Shown: positions 7,346 to 19,222 of the stretch, piece by piece
How the letters are laid out: each line of letters opens with the position of its first letter
Position numbering within the stretch: the stretch's first letter is position 1
DNA from: Bacteroidota bacterium
Lineage (GTDB): Bacteria; Bacteroidota; Bacteroidia; Bacteroidales; JACABE01
Assembly: GCA_013377005.1 (NCBI GenBank)
Contig: JACABE010000037.1
Coordinates: 1 to 34,588, forward strand
DNA: 34,588 nt
Direction: 5' to 3'
Made by a program: the position numbers and the translations under genes
Notes under the pieces: model-generated
What the model was told of the DNA's origin: nothing
The model's database searches: none
What the model saw: only the letters and a program-made list of their open reading frames with translations

Positions 7346-8764
7346 ATGTTTAAAACGAAAAGAGAGCAACAAATATTATACCATTTTATGAATATTACAC
7401 CAAATACTGATAAATACTTAAAAATGAGGGATAAATTTATTTTTCTCTCATTTGAAAGTTATACTTATTCACTTAAAAACAATATTTTTTCTGTTGAATT
7501 TAATTTTAATTTAGCCGATAAATATTCATTTCATCCAACGCTAACTTTTCCTGCCAGAGATTTTAATAAATGGAAGAATGCACCTGAAGAATTAATTCAA
7601 AATATTGTATTTCATATTGGTATGGTAGAATTAATTAGTTATTGGAAAGCTGCTTGTCCTCCTAAAGTCATCATAAAACCTCATATATTAAATGCAAAAC
7701 AAATTGCTTTTTGGAAAAAGGTTTATTTCAATGGTTTGGGTGAATTCTTTTATTTGAACAATATCAATGCTAGTATTGATGATTTTATGGAAATACAAGC
7801 AGATATAGGAAGTGAATTAAAAAAAACTGACATTATGACAGATGATTCTGTCATAATTCCAATTGGTGGAGGAAAAGATTCTGTAGTTACACTTGAACTA
7901 CTAAAGAATTTTGGTAAAAACAATTTACCTCTGATTATGAATCCAAGGAATGCCAGCTTGGAAACTGCTCAAATTGGTGGTTATTTGCGTGAAAACATTA
8001 TTGAAATTAGCAGGAGTATTCATCCTCAATTATTAGAATTAAATAAACAGGGTTTTTTGAACGGACATACGCCTTTTTCTGCATTATTAGCATTCGTAAC
8101 ACTTTTGTCTGCTGTGTTTACCGGAAAACGAAATATTGCATTATCAAATGAATCGAGTGCAAATGAAGCTACTGTTGAAAATACTACTGTAAATCATCAG
8201 TATTCAAAAGGTTATGAGTTTGAACATGATTTTAGAACTTATGTGAATACTTATATTACATCAAGTATTAATTATTTTAGTTTTTTACGTCCGTTGAGTG
8301 AATTGCAAATCGGGAGTTTATTTGCTAAATATCCGAAATATTTTGCAAGTTTTAAAAGTTGCAATGTAGGAAGTAAAACTGATATATGGTGTGGTAATTG
8401 CCCCAAATGTTTGTTTTCATTTATAATACTATCGCCTTTCATCAAAAGAAAAAATATGATTTCTATATTTGGAAAAGATATGCTGAATGATGAAAGTTTA
8501 AGATTTTACTTTGAACAATTAATTGGTATTGAAAACGTAAAGCCATTTGAATGTGTTGGAACTGTGGATGAAGTAAATGTTGCTATCAATATGATTATTA
8601 AACAAATTCCCCAAAATGAAATGCCTTTATTGCTAAAATATTATCAAACACTTTCTTATTATGCTCAATACGAAAATATTAATTTACATTCGTTTTTAAA
8701 TACATTTAATGATGAGCATTTTCTTGAAACTGAATTTGTAAAAATATTGAAAGATAAAATTTAG
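7346..8764 (+). CDS. murL: UDP-MurNAc-L-Ala-L-Glu epimerase (MurL-like)
   Basis: Starting at the ATG at 7346, the protein has 472 residues. It carries a PP-loop-like ATP motif, PIGGGKDS (about 172-179), an NESSAN motif near 268-273, and a four-cysteine cluster (about 339, 349, 352, 355; WCGNCPKC) that could bind a metal. These features and the position directly upstream of murD match MurL, described in Xanthomonas. MurL uses ATP to epimerise the terminal L-Glu of UDP-MurNAc-L-Ala-L-Glu to D-Glu, replacing glutamate racemase. Reading farther upstream would overlap yqgE and add an unlikely hydrophobic stretch. If the TAATTTTG element is the true promoter, the ATG at 7388 is a better start. Family identity is from memory of the motifs; a PP-loop enzyme of another function is the main alternative. 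Confidence 0.75.
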   Translation: MFKTKREQQILYHFMNITPNTDKYLKMRDKFIFLSFESYTYSLKNNIFSVEFNFNLADKYSFHPTLTFPARDFNKWKNAPEELIQNIVFHIGMVELISYWKAACPPKVIIKPHILNAKQIAFWKKVYFNGLGEFFYLNNINASIDDFMEIQADIGSELKKTDIMTDDSVIIPIGGGKDSVVTLELLKNFGKNNLPLIMNPRNASLETAQIGGYLRENIIEISRSIHPQLLELNKQGFLNGHTPFSALLAFVTLLSAVFTGKRNIALSNESSANEATVENTTVNHQYSKGYEFEHDFRTYVNTYITSSINYFSFLRPLSELQIGSLFAKYPKYFASFKSCNVGSKTDIWCGNCPKCLFSFIILSPFIKRKNMISIFGKDMLNDESLRFYFEQLIGIENVKPFECVGTVDEVNVAINMIIKQIPQNEMPLLLKYYQTLSYYAQYENINLHSFLNTFNDEHFLETEFVKILKDKI

Positions 8765-8856
8765 TTTAAAAAGTAAAGCAAAATCATTTTAAAAAACGAG
8801 ATAGCTATTGTTATTTCTTATAAACCTCATAACATCAACTCTAAACTTAATACACT

Positions 8857-10251
8857 ATGAACGAGAATATTCTTCACAATATAATTGATAATAAAAAAGT
8901 TTTAATTCTTGGTTTCGGGAAAGAAGGTCGTTCTACATATCAGTTTTTGAGACAATATTTCCCTGATAAGCTATTTTGGATTGCTGATAATGATAAAGCG
9001 TTAACTGAAAACTATCTTTTTCATCCTAATGAAAAACTGAGTTTTATTCTGGGCGATACTTATCTGAACTCACTTTCTGATTATGATTTAATTATAAAAA
9101 CACCTGGTATTTCCTTGAAAAACCTGCCTAATTTGCAATTGCAAAATCTTAATATAACTTCTCAAACAGAATTATTTTTACAACTTTTTTCAAAACAGGT
9201 AATTGGTATTACTGGTACAAAAGGAAAAAGCACTACAAGTAATTTGATTTATTCCATTCTTAAGTCTTATACAAATAATGTAGTTTTGGTAGGTAATATG
9301 GGCTTCCCTCCTTTCGACCAAGTTGCAAATATTGATAACAATAGCTTTATTGTATTTGAAATGTCTTCTCATCAACTGGAAAATTGTAAAGTGGCGCCGC
9401 ATTTCTCAATATTGTTGAATTTATTTCAAGAGCATCTCGATCATTATCAGACGTATAAAGATTACCAATTGGCAAAATTTAATATTGCAAAATTTCAGCT
9501 TACTAACGATTATTTTATTTGCAATGCTGATAATAATGAAATTAATGTTACATTAAAGGAACTACAAATAGCAGCTAAACATATCTGTTTTTCTTTGCTG
9601 CAAGAGGTTAAATATGGCTGCTTTGTAAAAAATAATATGATTTATTATAAAGATGATAAATCATGTGTTGCATATTATGATATTAATCTACCTAGAAATT
9701 TAAAAGGAGAACACAATCTTCTCAATATTATGGCTGCAATTAATGTTTGTAAATTGATTGGAATTCCTGATAATTTAATCATTGATGGTATTGGCAATTT
9801 TAAAGGTTTAGAACATCGAATAGAATATGTAGGTAACTTTGATGGCGTAAATTATTATAATGATTCTATTTCGACTATACCTGAAGCTACTATTGCTGCG
9901 GTTAATGCTTTGAAAAGCGTTAATACATTATTATTAGGTGGTTTTGACAGAGGTATCGAATATTCAAAACTTGCTGAATTTCTTGCACAATCATCTATTT
10001 GTAATTTAATATTTATAGGTGAAGCCGGAAAACGCATCTTATCAGAAATTATGAAATTTGAATGCCTCAATAAATTCCTATTTGAAGCAAATAGCTTTGA
10101 ACAGGCTGTTGAAATTGCAATTCACAAAACAGAGAAAGCTAAAATTTGTTTATTATCACCTGCTGCTGCAAGTTACGATATGTTTAAAAATTTTGAAGAG
10201 CGTGGAAATAGGTTTAAAGAATTAGTAAGCAAAAGTAAATTATATAGATAA
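8857..10251 (+). CDS. murD: UDP-MurNAc-L-alanine glutamate ligase MurD (probably MurD2 type)
   Basis: This 464-residue Mur ligase shows all three domains: an N-terminal Rossmann-like UDP-binding part (LILGFGKEGRSTYQFL), a central ATPase with P-loop GTKGKST (120-126) and the LNLFQEHLDHY block, and a C-terminal ligase domain with YNDSISTIPEAT and LLLGGFDRG. It adds glutamate to UDP-MurNAc-L-alanine in the cytoplasmic stage of peptidoglycan synthesis. Because it lies 92 bases behind a MurL-like gene in the same direction, it is likely the MurD2 form that adds L-Glu before epimerisation; the amino-acid preference cannot be read from the sequence. It stands outside a normal mra/dcw cluster (no mraY, murG or ftsW beside it), which fits a second or alternative MurD. 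Confidence 0.92.
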   Translation: MNENILHNIIDNKKVLILGFGKEGRSTYQFLRQYFPDKLFWIADNDKALTENYLFHPNEKLSFILGDTYLNSLSDYDLIIKTPGISLKNLPNLQLQNLNITSQTELFLQLFSKQVIGITGTKGKSTTSNLIYSILKSYTNNVVLVGNMGFPPFDQVANIDNNSFIVFEMSSHQLENCKVAPHFSILLNLFQEHLDHYQTYKDYQLAKFNIAKFQLTNDYFICNADNNEINVTLKELQIAAKHICFSLLQEVKYGCFVKNNMIYYKDDKSCVAYYDINLPRNLKGEHNLLNIMAAINVCKLIGIPDNLIIDGIGNFKGLEHRIEYVGNFDGVNYYNDSISTIPEATIAAVNALKSVNTLLLGGFDRGIEYSKLAEFLAQSSICNLIFIGEAGKRILSEIMKFECLNKFLFEANSFEQAVEIAIHKTEKAKICLLSPAAASYDMFKNFEERGNRFKELVSKSKLYR

Positions 10252-13151: not shown

Positions 13152-13670
13152 ATGCGAATAGAACGACTAAAAAAAGATCTGGATTTTCACGACAATGATA
13201 ATATAGATCTCAGTTTAATAGATACCCTGATTGCTAAATACAATGGTAAAAAAGGAAATTTGATACCCATATTGCAAGGCACACAACAAACTTTCGGTTA
13301 CCTTCCTAAGCAAGCATTTATAAAAATATCAGAAGAAACAGGTTTAAAATTAAGCGAAATGTATGGTGTAGCTACTTTTTATGCACAATTTCGTTTAAAA
13401 CCAGTTGGCAAACATATCATCAAAGTTTGTCATGGAACAGCTTGTCATGTTCAAAATGCCAATGCTATTACAGAAGCCATACAAGAATCGCTAGGTATAT
13501 TGGATGGCGAAACCACAGAAGATAATTTGTTTACACTCGAATCTGTAGCATGTTTAGGATGTTGTTCTCTAGCTCCTGCAATGATGATAGGTGATGATAC
13601 TTACGCCAAGCTTACCGGAAAAGAAGCAGTAAACATTATCCAAAACATTAAAAGCAAAGAAAGCAATTAA
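13152..13670 (+). CDS. NuoE/HydC-like thioredoxin-fold [2Fe-2S] subunit
   Basis: This 172-residue protein is the NuoE-type subunit of a flavin-based NAD(H)-linked complex. Helical N-terminal half: ILQGTQQTFGYLP, then MYGVATFYAQF. C-terminal thioredoxin-like fold: four cysteine ligands, Cys93 and Cys98 in CHGTACH and Cys134 and Cys138 in CLGCCSLAP, which hold one [2Fe-2S] cluster. Such subunits relay electrons at the NADH end of complex I, HydABC hydrogenases, NAD-dependent formate dehydrogenases and Stn transhydrogenases. It is the first gene of a tight operon, 19 bases upstream of the NuoF-like gene. No hydrogenase H-cluster gene follows, which argues against HydABC. Confidence 0.93.
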   Translation: MRIERLKKDLDFHDNDNIDLSLIDTLIAKYNGKKGNLIPILQGTQQTFGYLPKQAFIKISEETGLKLSEMYGVATFYAQFRLKPVGKHIIKVCHGTACHVQNANAITEAIQESLGILDGETTEDNLFTLESVACLGCCSLAPAMMIGDDTYAKLTGKEAVNIIQNIKSKESN

Positions 13671-13680
13671 CCACAAATTA

Positions 13681-13693
13681 CCATAAATTATGG
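13681..13693. repeat. 13-bp palindrome over the NuoF-like start codon
   Basis: CCATAAATTATGG is a perfect palindrome around a central A and includes the ATG at 13690. The ten bases just upstream (CCACAAATTA) repeat its left part with one mismatch. It could form a small hairpin that hides the start codon; chance in AT-rich DNA is the alternative. Confidence 0.4.
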
Positions 13694-15468
13694 AAAAGAC
13701 AACAGTAATAGTAGGTTTGGGTAGTTGTGGTATAGCTGCCGGAGCCAATAAAACTTATCAAAAAATTCAATCTTTGTTAAAAAGTAATCAATTGGATTTC
13801 GAGCTTAAGAAAACCAGTTGTATCGGCATGTGTTTCCGCGAACCTTTGGTAGAAATTATCGACAAAAATGGCTCTTATATTTATGGAAATGTAGACGAAA
13901 ACCGTGCTATTGAGATTATTGAAAAACATATCATTAAACAAGAACCCATTAAAGAATATGTTGTAAAAACAGATTTATTCGACACTGAAGACAATAAGTT
14001 TTTTGAAGCTCAGGTAAGAATAGCTTTACGTCATTGTGGTTTAATTGACCCCGAATCTATCGAAGATTACGAATCCCAATTAGGTTATGCTGCAATTCGT
14101 AAAATAGCAACTGAAAACATTAATTACGAAGTCGTAATTCAATCTATATTAGACTCAGGTCTTCGTGGTAGAGGTGGTGGTGGTTTCTCAACAGGAATGA
14201 AATGGCGTTTTGCTCGCAACAATAAATCCGATGAAAAATACATTATTTGCAATGCCGACGAAGGTGACCCTGGTGCATTTATGGATCGCTCACTGTTAGA
14301 AGGCGACCCACATGCTGTGTTGGAAGGGATGATAATTGGAGCTTATGCAATAGGTGCTACTGAAGGTGTAATTTATTGCCGTGCTGAATATCCATTAGCT
14401 ATCAAACGCCTGGAAATTGCGATAGAACAGGGAAGAACTAAAGGTTATTTAGGTAAAAGCATATTGGGAATAAAAGGTTTTAATTTTGATATACATATAA
14501 AAGAAGGAGCAGGAGCATTTGTTTGTGGAGAAGAAACAGCTTTAATTGCTTCTGTAGAAGGCGAAAGAGGTATGCCTCGTAAACGCCCCCCCTTCCCTGC
14601 TGAATCAGGTTTGTGGCGTAAGCCAACAAATATTAACAACGTTGAAACCTATGCCAATATTCCCTGGATTATATACAATGGTGCCACCGAATATTCAAAA
14701 TATGGAACAGAAAAAAGTAAAGGCACCAAAGTATTTGCATTGGCTGGTAAAATAAATCATTCAGGTTTGGTAGAAGTACCTATGGGAATTACTATTCGTG
14801 ATATTATTTTCAAACTGGGTGGTGGCATTCCAAATGGTAAAAAATTTAAAGCAGTTCAGTTGGGTGGTCCTTCTGGAGGGTGTATTCCTGAATTTCTTGC
14901 TGATACTGTTGTTGATTACGATTCAGTAAATGCAACAGGAGCCATTATGGGTAGCGGTGGTATGGTTGTAATGGATGAAGCTACTTGTATGGTTGATATT
15001 GCAAAATTTTTCCTCAACTTTACACAAGAAGAATCATGTGGTAAATGCACGTTTTGTCGAATCGGGACAAAACGCATGCTTGAAATATTAAATCGCATAA
15101 CAGAAGGAAAAGGCAAAGATGAAGACATTGCAAAACTTGAAGAATTAGCTGTTCAAATTAAAGACAATTCGTTGTGTGGATTAGGACAAACTGCACCGAA
15201 CCCTGTATTAACAACTTTGAAATATTTTCGAGATGAATATGAAGCTCATATTTTTGCAAAAAAATGCCCTGCAAAGGCATGCAAAGCTTTATTAACTTAT
15301 GAGATTATCGAAGATAAATGTACAGGATGTACCATTTGTGCCATAAAATGCCCTGTTAAAGCCATAACCGGCGAACGCAAAAAAGTACATCATATCATTC
15401 AGGAAAATTGCATCAAGTGTGGAGATTGCTATTCGAGATGTAAATTTGAAGCCATTAGCTTAACTTAA
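13690..15468 (+). CDS. HydB/NuoF-like NADH-binding flavoprotein subunit
   Basis: This 592-residue protein is the NAD(H)- and FMN-binding subunit. Domains in order: an N-terminal thioredoxin-like domain (1-90) with Cys13, Cys44 and Cys48; the NuoF core with the FMN/NADH glycine-rich loop RGRGGGGF (159-166), NADEGDPGAFMDRS, and GAGAFVCGEETAL; a [4Fe-4S] site in SCGKCTFCR (Cys450, 453, 456) with a fourth Cys in SLCGLGQ; and a C-terminal two-cluster ferredoxin domain starting at Cys544 (CTGCTICAIKC and CIKCGDCYSRC). This extended form is typical of bifurcating HydB-like subunits rather than the shorter NuoF of complex I. In bifurcating complexes the extra ferredoxin domain is the likely contact for ferredoxin. 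The gene sits between the NuoE-like gene and the chimeric third subunit. Confidence 0.93.
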   Translation: MEKTTVIVGLGSCGIAAGANKTYQKIQSLLKSNQLDFELKKTSCIGMCFREPLVEIIDKNGSYIYGNVDENRAIEIIEKHIIKQEPIKEYVVKTDLFDTEDNKFFEAQVRIALRHCGLIDPESIEDYESQLGYAAIRKIATENINYEVVIQSILDSGLRGRGGGGFSTGMKWRFARNNKSDEKYIICNADEGDPGAFMDRSLLEGDPHAVLEGMIIGAYAIGATEGVIYCRAEYPLAIKRLEIAIEQGRTKGYLGKSILGIKGFNFDIHIKEGAGAFVCGEETALIASVEGERGMPRKRPPFPAESGLWRKPTNINNVETYANIPWIIYNGATEYSKYGTEKSKGTKVFALAGKINHSGLVEVPMGITIRDIIFKLGGGIPNGKKFKAVQLGGPSGGCIPEFLADTVVDYDSVNATGAIMGSGGMVVMDEATCMVDIAKFFLNFTQEESCGKCTFCRIGTKRMLEILNRITEGKGKDEDIAKLEELAVQIKDNSLCGLGQTAPNPVLTTLKYFRDEYEAHIFAKKCPAKACKALLTYEIIEDKCTGCTICAIKCPVKAITGERKKVHHIIQENCIKCGDCYSRCKFEAISLT

Positions 15469-15477
15469 TCTTTAACC

Positions 15478-15509
15478 CATTAACTCATTAGCTTAATAAC
15501 CTAATAACA
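15478..15509. repeat. Four degenerate 8-bp units in the operon spacer
   Basis: The spacer reads as four 8-base units: CATTAACT, CATTAGCT, TAATAACC and TAATAACA. The string CATTAGCTTAA also occurs at the end of the preceding gene. It looks like simple-sequence expansion that sets the distance between two operon genes; no function is evident. Confidence 0.4.
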
Positions 15510-15514
15510 AAACT

Positions 15515-18500
15515 ATGAGTAACAGTGTAAATATCGTATTAAACGGTGAAATAATCAGAGCTTATTCTGATGAGACTATATTAGAAGTAGCCAACAGAAA
15601 TAATATCCAAATTCCTACTTTGTGTAATGACCCTCGCATTGAGCCTTATACATCCTGCTATGTCTGTGTAGTAGAAGTGGAAGGAATGAAAGGTTTACAA
15701 CCTTCGTGTTCTACCAAAGTAAGAGAAGGTATGGTAATTAAAACAGAAAACGACAAAGTAAAAAAAGCCAGAAAAACAGCACTTGATTTGCTATTAAGCA
15801 ATCATTATGCTGATTGTTCAGGCCCTTGTAAGCAAACTTGTCCTGCCGGAGTTGATGTTCAGGGTTATATTTCATTGATAGAAAAAGGCTTATATAACGA
15901 TGCAATTGCATTAATTAAAGAAGTTAATCCTTTGCCTGCCATTTGTGGTAGAGTTTGTGTGCGTCCTTGCGAAGTAGCTTGTCGCCGAAATTTGTTGGAT
16001 GAAGGAACTGGTGTTGGAATTGATTATCTCAAACGTTTTGCTGCGGATAAAGACTTAGAATCAATTGCTAAATTTATCCCTAAAATTAAGTCTTCTACAA
16101 ATAAAAAGGTTGCAGTTATCGGTGCCGGACCTGGCGGGTTGTCTGCAGCTTATTTTTTACAAATAGAAGGACATCAGGCAGATATTTATGAAGCAGCTCC
16201 TAAAGCAGGTGGCTGGTTGCGTTATGGCATTCCTGAATACCGTTTACCTAATGATGTAGTTCAGAGCGAAGTTGACAACATCACAGAATTAGGTGTAAAA
16301 ATCTTTTACAATAAGACCTTAGGCGGAAATGTAAGTTACAAAGCAATCAAAGAAAAATACGATGCTGTTGTACTTACCATAGGCTCGCAAAAAGGAACTT
16401 CAGTAGGTTGTGAAGGTGATGATGCAGAAAATGTATTTTCAGGAATCGACTTTTTAAAGAAAATGGAAGTAACCAGTCGAAAATACAATTTTACAGGGAA
16501 AACTGTTGCTGTTGTAGGAGGTGGAAATACTGCAATGGATTGTTGCAGAACTTCTATACGTTGCGGTGCAAAAAAAGTGTATGTTGTGTATCGTCGTACC
16601 GAAAATGAAATGCCTGCTAACCCTATTGAAATACATGAATCTAAATTAGAAGGAGTTGAATATTTATTTTTGACGAATCCTACCCGTATTAACAAGGATA
16701 AAGAAGGTAAGCTCAAAACTATGACTTGTATCAAAATGGAATTAGGCGATGCCGATGCTTCTGGTAGAAGAAGACCTATTCCTATTGATGGTTCTGAATT
16801 TGACATTAAATTGGATTATATATTGGCTGCCGTTGGTCAAAAAACAAACGTTATGTTTTTGGAAGATATTAACAACTATATTAACGATGGCGAATTAAAA
16901 TTGAGTAAGTGGCACGATTTGGATTGCGATAAGAACACCTTACAAACAGGCGTAAAGTCAATATTTGCAGCTGGTGATGGAGTAACAGGACCTGGCACTT
17001 TAATTCAAGCTATTTCACAAGCAAAAATTGCAGCACTTTCATGTCATCAGTTTTTAATGGGATTACCTATTGAACCTGTAAAAAAAGAATTTTTGAGTAA
17101 AAAAGACAATTTCAAACTTCAAATAAAAGAAGAATATAATACATTTTTCCCAAAACAATTGCGTGAAGAAATGCCTACCTTAAATCCTAAACACCGTATC
17201 AACTTTAATGAAGTTGAATTAGGATATAAAAACGAAGAAACAGCCAAACATGAAGCCAATCGTTGTTTAGAATGTGGTTGCACAGAATATTTTACTTGTG
17301 ATCTGAAAAAATATGCTACTGAATACAACGCAGATCAATTGCATTTTGAAGGTGAATTTTCTGAACATAGTGTCAACTTCGATCATCCTTTTATAGAAAT
17401 TGATAACAACAAATGTATTTTATGTTCTCGTTGTGTTCGTATTTGCAAAGAAGTTGTAGGAGCCAATGCGTTAGGTTTAGTTGAACGTGGGTTTAAAACT
17501 TATGTTGCTCCAAGTTTGGGTGACAAATTACAAGATACATCCTGCGAAAGTTGTGGAATGTGTATATCTACTTGCCCTACAGGAGCAATTACTGAAAACG
17601 TATATTTTAAACCAGGGCCTGTAAAAACTAATACTTTTGAAACAATTTGTAATTATTGTTCAGTTGGTTGCAATATTGTAATTCATCATACAAATGGGTT
17701 TGTAATGAAAGTTACAGGTGCTAAAGGAATGGTAAATCCCGATGGAAATATTTGCAAATATGCAAAATTTGGCTATAAATATCTAAATGATAAAAAACGA
17801 ATTACCAAACCTTTATTAAAAACAGATGGTAAATTTGAAGAGATAAGTTTTAAACAAGCTTATGATTATATTGTACAAAAAATAAGAAGTGTAGAAGCAG
17901 ATGAAAATGCTTTCTTTGCAGGAGCTCGCTTAACCAACGAAGAAATTTATTTAATTCAGAAAATAGCAAGAGCCGGAGCAAAAACCAATAACATTTCAAG
18001 CATGCATTATATCAAAAGAGGTGCTCACTTAATCAATACTTCTTTCGACAATGCTCCATTTAGCCAAATAAAAGATGCTAGCAAAATATATTTATTTGGT
18101 GCAGAAATTAACACAGACAACCCTGTTGTTGGCTACATGGTAAATAACACCCGCTATACAAAGAAGATTCAAGTAGAAGTGTTGACTACTTTGAGTAATA
18201 ATTCAATGTCAAATAAAGTAGATAGAGTAATTAAGACAGATTCTTATTACTATTTTATAAAAGCTATAAATTATTATCTGCTAAAATATAAGTTGTATAA
18301 TGCACTGTATATAAATGATAATTGTGTTGATTTTGAAGCTTACAAAGATAATTTGCTGAAAGAAAATTATGACGAATTGATAAAATTATCTGGCCTTACT
18401 GCAAATGAAATTGCGAACTGTGCCAATGATTACAATATGCAAATGAATGCCATTATTTTGTTCTCCGAAAAAGAAATATCAGCACCAGCTTCTACAGAAT

Positions 18501-19222
18501 TGTACAATTTAACAATGATAACTGGAAAATTAGGTAAAACATCTAACGGTCTCATTGCTTTGAAAACCAAAAATAACTCACAAGGTTTATTTGATATGGG
18601 TGCTTATCCTAAGTTTGGCGTTGGTTATCAAGAAATAGATAATAAGGATTTTGTAAAGAAAATGGAGAGAATATGGGGTGTTAGTGGTTTATCTACAAAA
18701 CATACTCAGGAACAAGAACTCTTATTACGAGAAGGAAAAATTAAAAATGTTTTCATCTTTGGTGAAGACCCGATTGGTTGTGCAATAGACAAGGAAAATC
18801 TTCGTGAAGTTGCCTCTAATGGAGGGTTTGGAGTAGTACAAGATTATTTCATGACAGAAACAGCTCAATTAGCTGATTTAGTTCTTCCTGCATCCTTACC
18901 ATTTGAAATAGGCGGGCACTTTACTAATACACAACGTTACATACAAAGAGTAAATCAAACAATGCCTTCTTCTATTACTGAGACATCATATATGCAGTTA
19001 TTTACCTTATTAAAAAAATTGGGAGTAAATACAACTAACGATGTGAATGATGTTATGATGGAAGTAATTTCATTGTTACCTGATATTGATATTAATGAAG
19101 ACAGAAGTAAATATCGTTTTATTGAAACAAAAGATAATAATTATAAAGCATTATTCAATCATGCTTGTGATAATGTAGTAAAATATTTCGATAATTATTT
19201 TGATGAGAAAATAAAATACTAA
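15515..19222 (+). CDS. NuoG-NfnB-FdhA-like chimeric iron-sulfur flavoprotein (Stn-type transhydrogenase subunit)
   Basis: This 1235-residue multidomain protein reads in order: NuoG-type [2Fe-2S] domain (1-80; Cys37, 48, 51, 65); a cysteine-rich linker and GltD/NfnB-type iron-sulfur domain (100-160; Cys101, 105, 109, 144, 148, 152, 156); an FAD domain beginning GAGPGG (about 203-208); an NAD(P)H domain with GGGNTAMD and VYRRTENEMPA (about 335-367), whose paired Arg suggests NADPH; cysteines near 584-595; a two-cluster ferredoxin domain (Cys634-644, Cys677-687); and a molybdopterin-oxidoreductase-like domain with its [4Fe-4S] ligands (Cys712, 715, 719, 747). The last domain looks inactive: the region of the formate dehydrogenase Cys/Sec reads SSMHYIKRG, and the C-terminal dinucleotide-binding domain is missing. 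With the two genes before it, the likely role is electron bifurcation among NADPH, NADH and ferredoxin, as in the Stn complex of Sporomusa. NAD-linked formate dehydrogenase is less likely. Confidence 0.85.
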   Translation: MSNSVNIVLNGEIIRAYSDETILEVANRNNIQIPTLCNDPRIEPYTSCYVCVVEVEGMKGLQPSCSTKVREGMVIKTENDKVKKARKTALDLLLSNHYADCSGPCKQTCPAGVDVQGYISLIEKGLYNDAIALIKEVNPLPAICGRVCVRPCEVACRRNLLDEGTGVGIDYLKRFAADKDLESIAKFIPKIKSSTNKKVAVIGAGPGGLSAAYFLQIEGHQADIYEAAPKAGGWLRYGIPEYRLPNDVVQSEVDNITELGVKIFYNKTLGGNVSYKAIKEKYDAVVLTIGSQKGTSVGCEGDDAENVFSGIDFLKKMEVTSRKYNFTGKTVAVVGGGNTAMDCCRTSIRCGAKKVYVVYRRTENEMPANPIEIHESKLEGVEYLFLTNPTRINKDKEGKLKTMTCIKMELGDADASGRRRPIPIDGSEFDIKLDYILAAVGQKTNVMFLEDINNYINDGELKLSKWHDLDCDKNTLQTGVKSIFAAGDGVTGPGTLIQAISQAKIAALSCHQFLMGLPIEPVKKEFLSKKDNFKLQIKEEYNTFFPKQLREEMPTLNPKHRINFNEVELGYKNEETAKHEANRCLECGCTEYFTCDLKKYATEYNADQLHFEGEFSEHSVNFDHPFIEIDNNKCILCSRCVRICKEVVGANALGLVERGFKTYVAPSLGDKLQDTSCESCGMCISTCPTGAITENVYFKPGPVKTNTFETICNYCSVGCNIVIHHTNGFVMKVTGAKGMVNPDGNICKYAKFGYKYLNDKKRITKPLLKTDGKFEEISFKQAYDYIVQKIRSVEADENAFFAGARLTNEEIYLIQKIARAGAKTNNISSMHYIKRGAHLINTSFDNAPFSQIKDASKIYLFGAEINTDNPVVGYMVNNTRYTKKIQVEVLTTLSNNSMSNKVDRVIKTDSYYYFIKAINYYLLKYKLYNALYINDNCVDFEAYKDNLLKENYDELIKLSGLTANEIANCANDYNMQMNAIILFSEKEISAPASTELYNLTMITGKLGKTSNGLIALKTKNNSQGLFDMGAYPKFGVGYQEIDNKDFVKKMERIWGVSGLSTKHTQEQELLLREGKIKNVFIFGEDPIGCAIDKENLREVASNGGFGVVQDYFMTETAQLADLVLPASLPFEIGGHFTNTQRYIQRVNQTMPSSITETSYMQLFTLLKKLGVNTTNDVNDVMMEVISLLPDIDINEDRSKYRFIETKDNNYKALFNHACDNVVKYFDNYFDEKIKY

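Follow-up and report, generated by a model that had tools for sequence, protein, structure and literature searches.

How does a bacterium supply the D-glutamate of its peptidoglycan when no glutamate racemase is recognised in its genome? This question is raised by two neighbouring genes, murL and a murD of the MurD2 type, in a draft genome of a Bacteroidota bacterium (GCA_013377005.1; lineage Bacteroidales; JACABE01). The whole stretch of DNA that was analysed, 34,588 nucleotides of the forward strand (contig JACABE010000037.1, positions 1 to 34,588), is called the window below. Cell-wall D-glutamate is usually credited to the racemase MurI or to a D-amino-acid transaminase (PMC8788868). A further pathway, MurL/MurD2, is described in Xanthomonas (XOO_1319/XOO_1320 in Xanthomonas oryzae), and enzymes from Micromonospora and Salinispora have also been assayed (PMC8788868, PMC5808125). 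It is listed for other Gammaproteobacteria, Alphaproteobacteria and actinobacteria, together with homologues of low similarity in a fungus, in cyanobacteria and in an amoeba (PMC8788868). The initial annotation of the window had matched its two genes to this route. Our analysis indicates that the pair very probably makes peptidoglycan D-glutamate without free D-glutamate, and we regard it as a divergent Bacteroidales branch of MurL/MurD2.

Sequence features of the murL-murD2 pair

The murL reading frame lies at 7346..8764 on the forward strand (ATG at 7346, the stop codon ending at 8764), and the frame of the MurD2-type ligase follows on the same strand at 8857..10251, after a spacing of 92 bases. 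The pair's flanking genes, one AlgH-like and the other tsaD, are on the opposite strand. A PP-loop GGGKDS, NESSAN and a CxxCxxC cluster in a protein ahead of a MurD in the same direction had been picked out by the initial annotation, and all of these elements were found. A hidden Markov model search, which it had recommended as a check, was clearly positive: MurL matched the NCBIfam profile NF041275 (MurL_Xanthmoales) with 283.5 bits (E-value = 2.3e-84), residues 50-469 being aligned to positions 24-444 of 447, and no other NCBIfam family appeared at E-values up to 1. Pfam gave nothing over its cut-off (DUF6395 at E 0.072), and a sequence search of the PDB gave two matches alone (E 0.58). Translation may in fact begin at the second methionine of the frame (residue 15, at 7388): residues 1-14 have a predicted local distance difference test score (pLDDT) under 50 in the structural model described below, and several homologous stretches start near residue 15.

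The Xanthomonas sacchari locus, annotated murL-murD in the public record, served as yardstick. When species genomes were scanned with 20 aligned MurLs, 573 relatives were confirmed, and the best 80 of these are referred to as the named loci. Among these 80, 79 are titled Bacteroidota (more than half of them Bacteroidales) and one is titled 'uncultured bacterium'; a few are titled Marinifilum, Draconibacterium, Lentimicrobium or Colimorpha. The window MurL, 13 MurLs from the named loci, X. sacchari MurL and a Pseudonocardia homologue were aligned in 16 rows. The 14 Bacteroidota rows contain 68 invariant positions that are identical in X. sacchari MurL and 36 that are invariant yet different there. 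The positions in common include GGGKDS, NGH-P, SNE-SA, NHQ-SK, the cysteines C339, C349, C352 and C355, and KPFEC-G, so that both near-full-length homology and the motifs of Xanthomonas MurL are found in the window protein. All motifs are on the forward strand. GGGKDS (residues 174-179, 7865..7882) is the predicted ATP pyrophosphate site and falls in the region of the model that PP-loop families match. It is followed by the conserved motifs NGHTP (239-243, 8060..8074), SNESSAN (267-273, 8144..8164, which contains NESSAN) and NHQYSK (283-288, 8192..8209), by the conserved four-cysteine site C339-x9-C349-x2-C352-x2-C355 (8360..8410, including CGNCPKC at 8390-8410), which is predicted from its cysteines to bind zinc as in QueC/QatC, and by the conserved KPFECVG (399-405, 8540..8560).

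A MurL-like gene with GGGRDS was also seen on a Pseudonocardia plasmid (L104:3764-5158), with no murD among its annotated neighbours, and a MurL match is present on two further Pseudonocardia plasmids.

A same-strand MurD stands downstream of MurL in 77 of the 80 named loci (spacing -13 to 311 bases), and MurD2 adjoins MurL on one contig in 29 of the 37 Bacteroidales genomes with MurL, which come from the survey described in the next section. Two of the 29 are fusions, in which MurL and MurD2 form a single open frame of 949 codons in G004 (the window's family, locus L100) and 885 codons in G280 (another family, locus L189), counted from stop to stop; both are draft assemblies. The score of the MurL profile and this recurrence in named loci and MurL genomes argue that the pairing is not due to chance.

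The ligase matched TIGR01087 with 350.6 bits (cut-off 211.95). Mutagenesis of X. oryzae MurD2 revealed that Glu197 and Arg358, which correspond to Asp182 and Lys348 of Escherichia coli MurD, set the choice of L-glutamate, and an E. coli MurD Lys319Thr mutant gained some use of L-glutamate (PMC8788868). By alignment, the window ligase carries Glu192 at the first of these positions (codon 9430..9432), Arg365 at the second (9949..9951) and, at the position of E. coli Lys319, Ile338 (9868..9870), all on the forward strand. This Glu/Ile/Arg triad is that of X. sacchari MurD2, whereas canonical MurD has Asp/Lys/Lys. Glu/Ile/Arg was found in 33 of the 34 MurD2 genes recovered from the 37 MurL genomes, in the MurD2 half of both fusions and in 73 of the 77 MurD2s of named loci (one Asp/Ile/Arg, three incomplete). 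Pro and Phe, which X. oryzae has at the positions of E. coli Ala414 and Leu416, are replaced by Ala and Tyr in the window ligase; this mismatch does not decide function, because the X. oryzae mutants P433A and F435L retained stereospecificity (PMC8788868). In a MurD tree, 23 MurD2s of the order and X. sacchari MurD2 fall on one side of a branch (support 98/99), apart from E. coli MurD and the MurDs of the division and cell wall (dcw) cluster. The window ligase shares this clade with Xanthomonas MurD2, which is represented by the single X. sacchari row; as that row is long-branched, its position inside the clade is unsure and the direction of transfer cannot be read.

Distribution of MurL and MurI

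As the initial annotation had advised, the genome that holds the window, 3.69 Mb in 92 contigs and 96.85% complete, was searched for murI and for a second murD. No match to the MurI profile TIGR00067 was found in this draft genome at E 0.001, while the control search was positive in Bacteroides, and a second murD was located in the dcw cluster (see below). Among 59 relatives, MurL was present in 25 and MurI over cut-off in 33; among 99 genomes of the order, one per family, the numbers were 33 and 63. The two sets overlap, and their union of 103 Bacteroidales genomes holds 37 genomes with MurL (counting G056, where a contig end leaves a MurL stub, and G058, where a stop lies within the match), 63 with MurI over cut-off, none with both and three with neither over cut-off (G019, G276, which has a 49-bit match, and G289). 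For this exclusion a Fisher test, which ignores shared ancestry, gave P-value = 7e-25. In line with it, the window's MurL is paired with a MurD2 in a genome without a MurI match, draft assemblies being used throughout.

A tree of MraY and FtsW, covering 28 of the 37 MurL and 25 of the 63 MurI genomes, placed 27 of the 28 MurL genomes in one clade (Shimodaira–Hasegawa-like approximate likelihood ratio test 99, quick search), so the exchange of MurI for MurL looks like roughly one event. The remaining MurL genome, G007, is placed outside this clade, next to a MurI genome on a long branch, perhaps wrongly.

The initial annotation had noted that the pair would imply independence from MurI in Bacteroidota. 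The phylum is too wide a frame for this: none of the 37 MurL genomes of the order has MurI over cut-off, but no real MurL match was obtained in 197 sampled genomes from the rest of the phylum. MurI was over cut-off in 173 of the 198 genomes searched in the phylum-wide sample, and the swap therefore seems confined to one clade of the order. Two weak MurL matches outside the order (20-21.5 bits, in frames of about 800 amino acids) were dismissed as unrelated.

Some genomes of the surveys had neither a MurI match at the limit used nor a real MurL match (G095, G122, G134, G169, G216, G220, G252, G071, G088, G092, G143, G189, G193, G197, G205, G225, G237, G241, G253, G019 and G289), and others had weak racemase matches alone, again with no real MurL (G061, G066, G108, G116, G213 and G276).

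Proposed synthesis of D-glutamate

In the canonical route, MurI makes free D-glutamate and MurD (TIGR01087) ligates it afterwards. If the chemistry of the X. oryzae, Micromonospora and Salinispora enzymes (PMC8788868) is transferred to the window by analogy, MurD2 would attach L-glutamate first, MurL would adenylate the attached glutamate at its alpha-carboxylate, at the cost of a second ATP, and then epimerise it, and the product would join the normal route at MurE. The window MurL would thus be an epimerase and MurD2 an L-glutamate ligase, and His241, His284 and Cys403, in the motifs NGHTP, NHQYSK and KPFECVG, are candidate active-site residues that may act as acid and base. MurI would have given way to this route about once, in a large clade of the order. 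The Xanthomonas MurL/MurD2 match in the initial annotation is supported by homology of MurL, by the lack of a murI match and the second murD in the draft genome, by the residues that mutagenesis of X. oryzae MurD2 had singled out and by the exclusion of MurL and MurI.

Several observations weigh against this pathway. The MurL score lies far below the curated NF041275 cut-off of 700, an equivalog threshold for Xanthomonadales that none of the 33 matching genomes among the 99 of the order reached, and the NCBIfam rule would therefore not name the protein MurL; it is 34.8% identical to X. sacchari MurL over 67% of its length. No MurD2 was found in three of the 37 MurL genomes (G056, G058 and G259) and no MurD beside MurL in three of the 80 named loci, and Asp replaces the Glu of the triad in G038 and L128. 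The window's assembly is an incomplete draft, and MurL genomes G030, G044 and G056 have weak TIGR00067 matches (35-44 bits, cut-off 146.65). A MurD of the D-glutamate type, with its checked catalytic residues, is retained in the dcw cluster, where it would be of little use if free D-glutamate were absent. D-glutamate might also be formed by transamination: a class IV aminotransferase (L068:1474-2301, between an apparent rnhB and a transporter gene, its neighbours not being pabB) scored 96 bits (cut-off 277) against the D-amino-acid transaminase model and 95 against a branched-chain one, and could be a D-amino-acid transaminase, PabC-like or something else. Finally, DapF may be a further source, a Chlamydia DapF having glutamate racemase activity (PMC5885031).

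In a different explanation, the MurD beside MurL is an ordinary D-glutamate ligase, its D-glutamate comes from a transaminase, a side activity of DapF or uptake, and the PP-loop protein has another function. The aminotransferase, though below cut-off, and a residual doubt left by 35% identity to Xanthomonas MurL would fit it; the residue triad, the common clade with MurD2, the two fusions and the exclusion of MurL and MurI all speak against it, and we consider it improbable. Synthesis by MurL and MurD2 is the reading retained here.

Predicted fold of MurL

An AlphaFold model of MurL was built from 36 sequences (pLDDT 90.2, predicted template modelling score 0.89). Its closest fold is QatC (Z 17.4, root mean square deviation (rmsd) 3.7, 321 aligned residues, model 30-430), followed by QueC (Z 13.4, rmsd 3.6, 201 residues) and Cap9 (Z 11.8), while the remaining entries are at 8.8 or below; the best E-value of a Foldseek search was no better than 8.5e-4. 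The predicted model combines a PP-loop Rossmann core with a four-cysteine site assigned by sequence, as in a QueC-like fold, and the N-terminal region of MurL also aligns to QatC. QueC has a zinc-binding C-x8-C-x2-C-x2-C and SGGxDS (PMC13329287), compared with C-x9-C-x2-C-x2-C and GGGKDS in MurL, and QatC has four zinc cysteines (PMC13279940).

The likeness raises the idea that the PP-loop protein is a nucleobase or protein modifier of the QueC/QatC type, acting for example in phage defence. The two best folds would agree with this, but MurL is the sole NCBIfam match at E up to 1, PADLOC and the Pfam QueC family gave no match at the same limit, phmmer did not connect the proteins either, and MurL both lies next to a Mur ligase and is found fused to one, its partner and presumed substrate belonging to the cell wall. 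We regard such a modifier as very improbable. MurL may rather be a QueC/QatC-like PP-loop enzyme whose predicted fold fits adenylation of a glutamate carboxylate. Adenylation of glutamate by MurL has also been proposed in PMC8788868, and the predicted fold would make that proposal concrete. Among the papers listed in a literature search on MurL, QueC, QatC and Cap9, none contained MurL.

The dcw MurD and its trimmed form

The second MurD of the window's genome, with the canonical Asp/Lys/Lys, is encoded at L008:11800-13143 in a dcw cluster whose order, named from translations, is mraZ, mraW, ftsI, murE, mraY, murD, ftsW, murG and murC. Across the 37 MurL genomes, dcw murD is full or near-full in 18, split over contig ends in three (G004, G056 and G296), cut down to the C-terminal domain in 11 and not found in five (G005, G024, G038, G272 and G278, where the dcw cluster was not inspected). 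Asp/Lys/Lys was found in all 18 full or near-full copies and in all 25 MurD copies aligned from the 63 MurI genomes. The 18 copies are also identical at K115, N138, E157, H183, K198 and other positions, with Phe or Tyr at position 422, and mean identity of the N-terminal part is 58.4% in the 18 MurL genomes (a value raised by four genomes of one genus), compared with 57.7% in the 25 MurI genomes.

Such conservation would be expected if two routes ran in parallel, MurL and MurD2 working de novo while dcw MurD adds scavenged or recycled D-glutamate, so that MurL and MurD2 would not be the sole supply of D-glutamate to the wall; recycling is one guess for why a D-glutamate-type MurD should persist without MurI. 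In its favour, 18 of 37 MurL genomes keep the enzyme with its triad and checked catalytic residues, its N-terminal part being about as conserved as where MurI is present. Against it, 11 of the 37 have lost the ATP-binding half, so dcw MurD is dispensable as a ligase in this clade, and the window's genome has no match to the racemase profile. Parallel routes are a tentative possibility, more a refinement of synthesis by MurL and MurD2 than its opposite.

The trimmed MurD was detected in 11 genomes of 11 different families (G007, G009, G036, G043, G053, G058, G259, G262, G274, G280 and G295; loci L074, L075, L080, L081, L086, L090, L185, L186, L187, L188 and L192). In all 11 it lies between mraY and ftsW with an intact frame and the ATP-binding half gone, and from the first ATG it has 176-184 residues (182 in seven). 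In nine, the start aligns with residue 266 of the dcw MurD from the window's genome; in G274 it is two residues earlier, and in G058 it was not reliably aligned. As the ATP-binding domain is missing, the product should not be a ligase. The position of Lys348 is not Lys in seven of the 11, and His301, Asp317 and Ser318 are kept in all. The identities of the remnants to the C-terminal region of full copies average 32-62%, which, together with an open frame in 11 families, suggests at the level of sequence that the remnant is under selection.

None of the 63 MurI genomes carries the trimmed form (MurD is full or almost full in 62 and absent from G021, an assembly 70% complete), giving an association with MurL at P-value = 6e-6 (Fisher test, ancestry again ignored). 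A 111-residue MurD piece in the MurI genome G010 was rejected as a trimmed form, because both pieces end at contig ends and represent one gene split by the assembly. The MurD profile search of 44 newer genomes stopped at E 1e-33, and the remnant of G280, which falls below this limit, was seen by reading the cluster; the five genomes without an inspected dcw cluster may therefore hold further trimmed copies.

A single clade of the trimmed-MurD genomes was not rejected with four genes (P-value = 0.056, approximately unbiased test, 9 rows) and was rejected with six genes (P-value = 0.0068, 11 rows, simpler model). In the four-gene tree, which includes MurE, rows were filtered by identity, since several 'MurE' rows had been MurD matches. 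Several independent losses of the ATP-binding half are likely. Of 43 full-length copies, 38 have methionine at the trimmed start position and the other five Ile, Val or Leu; a purely structural reason for this is possible, as two other alignment columns are also Met in at least 80% of full-length copies. It is conceivable, though we would not put it at even odds, that the C-terminal domain of Bacteroidales dcw MurD has a non-ligase job of its own, the short product being perhaps a scaffold or regulator of MraY-MurG-FtsW, and that the ATP-binding half was lost, probably on several occasions, once MurL/MurD2 had made the ligase redundant. Given the methionine at the trimmed start, full-length murD might then yield two products. 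Among the papers listed in a literature search for a truncated MurD, none looked relevant.

Elsewhere in the window, three consecutive genes at 13152-19219 encode thioredoxin-like ferredoxin, NADH-dehydrogenase 51K and molybdopterin-oxidoreductase domains, a set that we take to be that of NADH-linked formate dehydrogenase or hydrogenase complexes.

Discussion

The pair resembles Xanthomonas MurL/MurD2 in its gene order, its motifs, the Glu/Ile/Arg triad (checked in X. sacchari), the MurD2 clade and the lack of MurI. It differs in belonging to another phylum and in its low identity to X. sacchari MurL, and this divergence is reflected in NF041275, to which the protein aligns over nearly its full length (E 2.3e-84), yet at 283 bits against the cut-off of 700. 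Features of Bacteroidales that can be set against the Xanthomonas system are the canonical dcw MurD, or a remnant of it, in many genomes and the two MurL-MurD2 fusions. Literature searches, with most subscription journals outside their reach, listed no report of MurL/MurD2 in Bacteroidota.

A large clade of one order (33 of the 99 families sampled) seems to have swapped MurI for MurL/MurD2, and predictions of cell-wall targets for these mostly uncultured bacteria would change. On its predicted structure, MurL would join the QueC/QatC-like enzymes, with adenylation as a plausible mechanism, and the odd MurD remnant hints that the C-terminal domain has a role other than catalysis.

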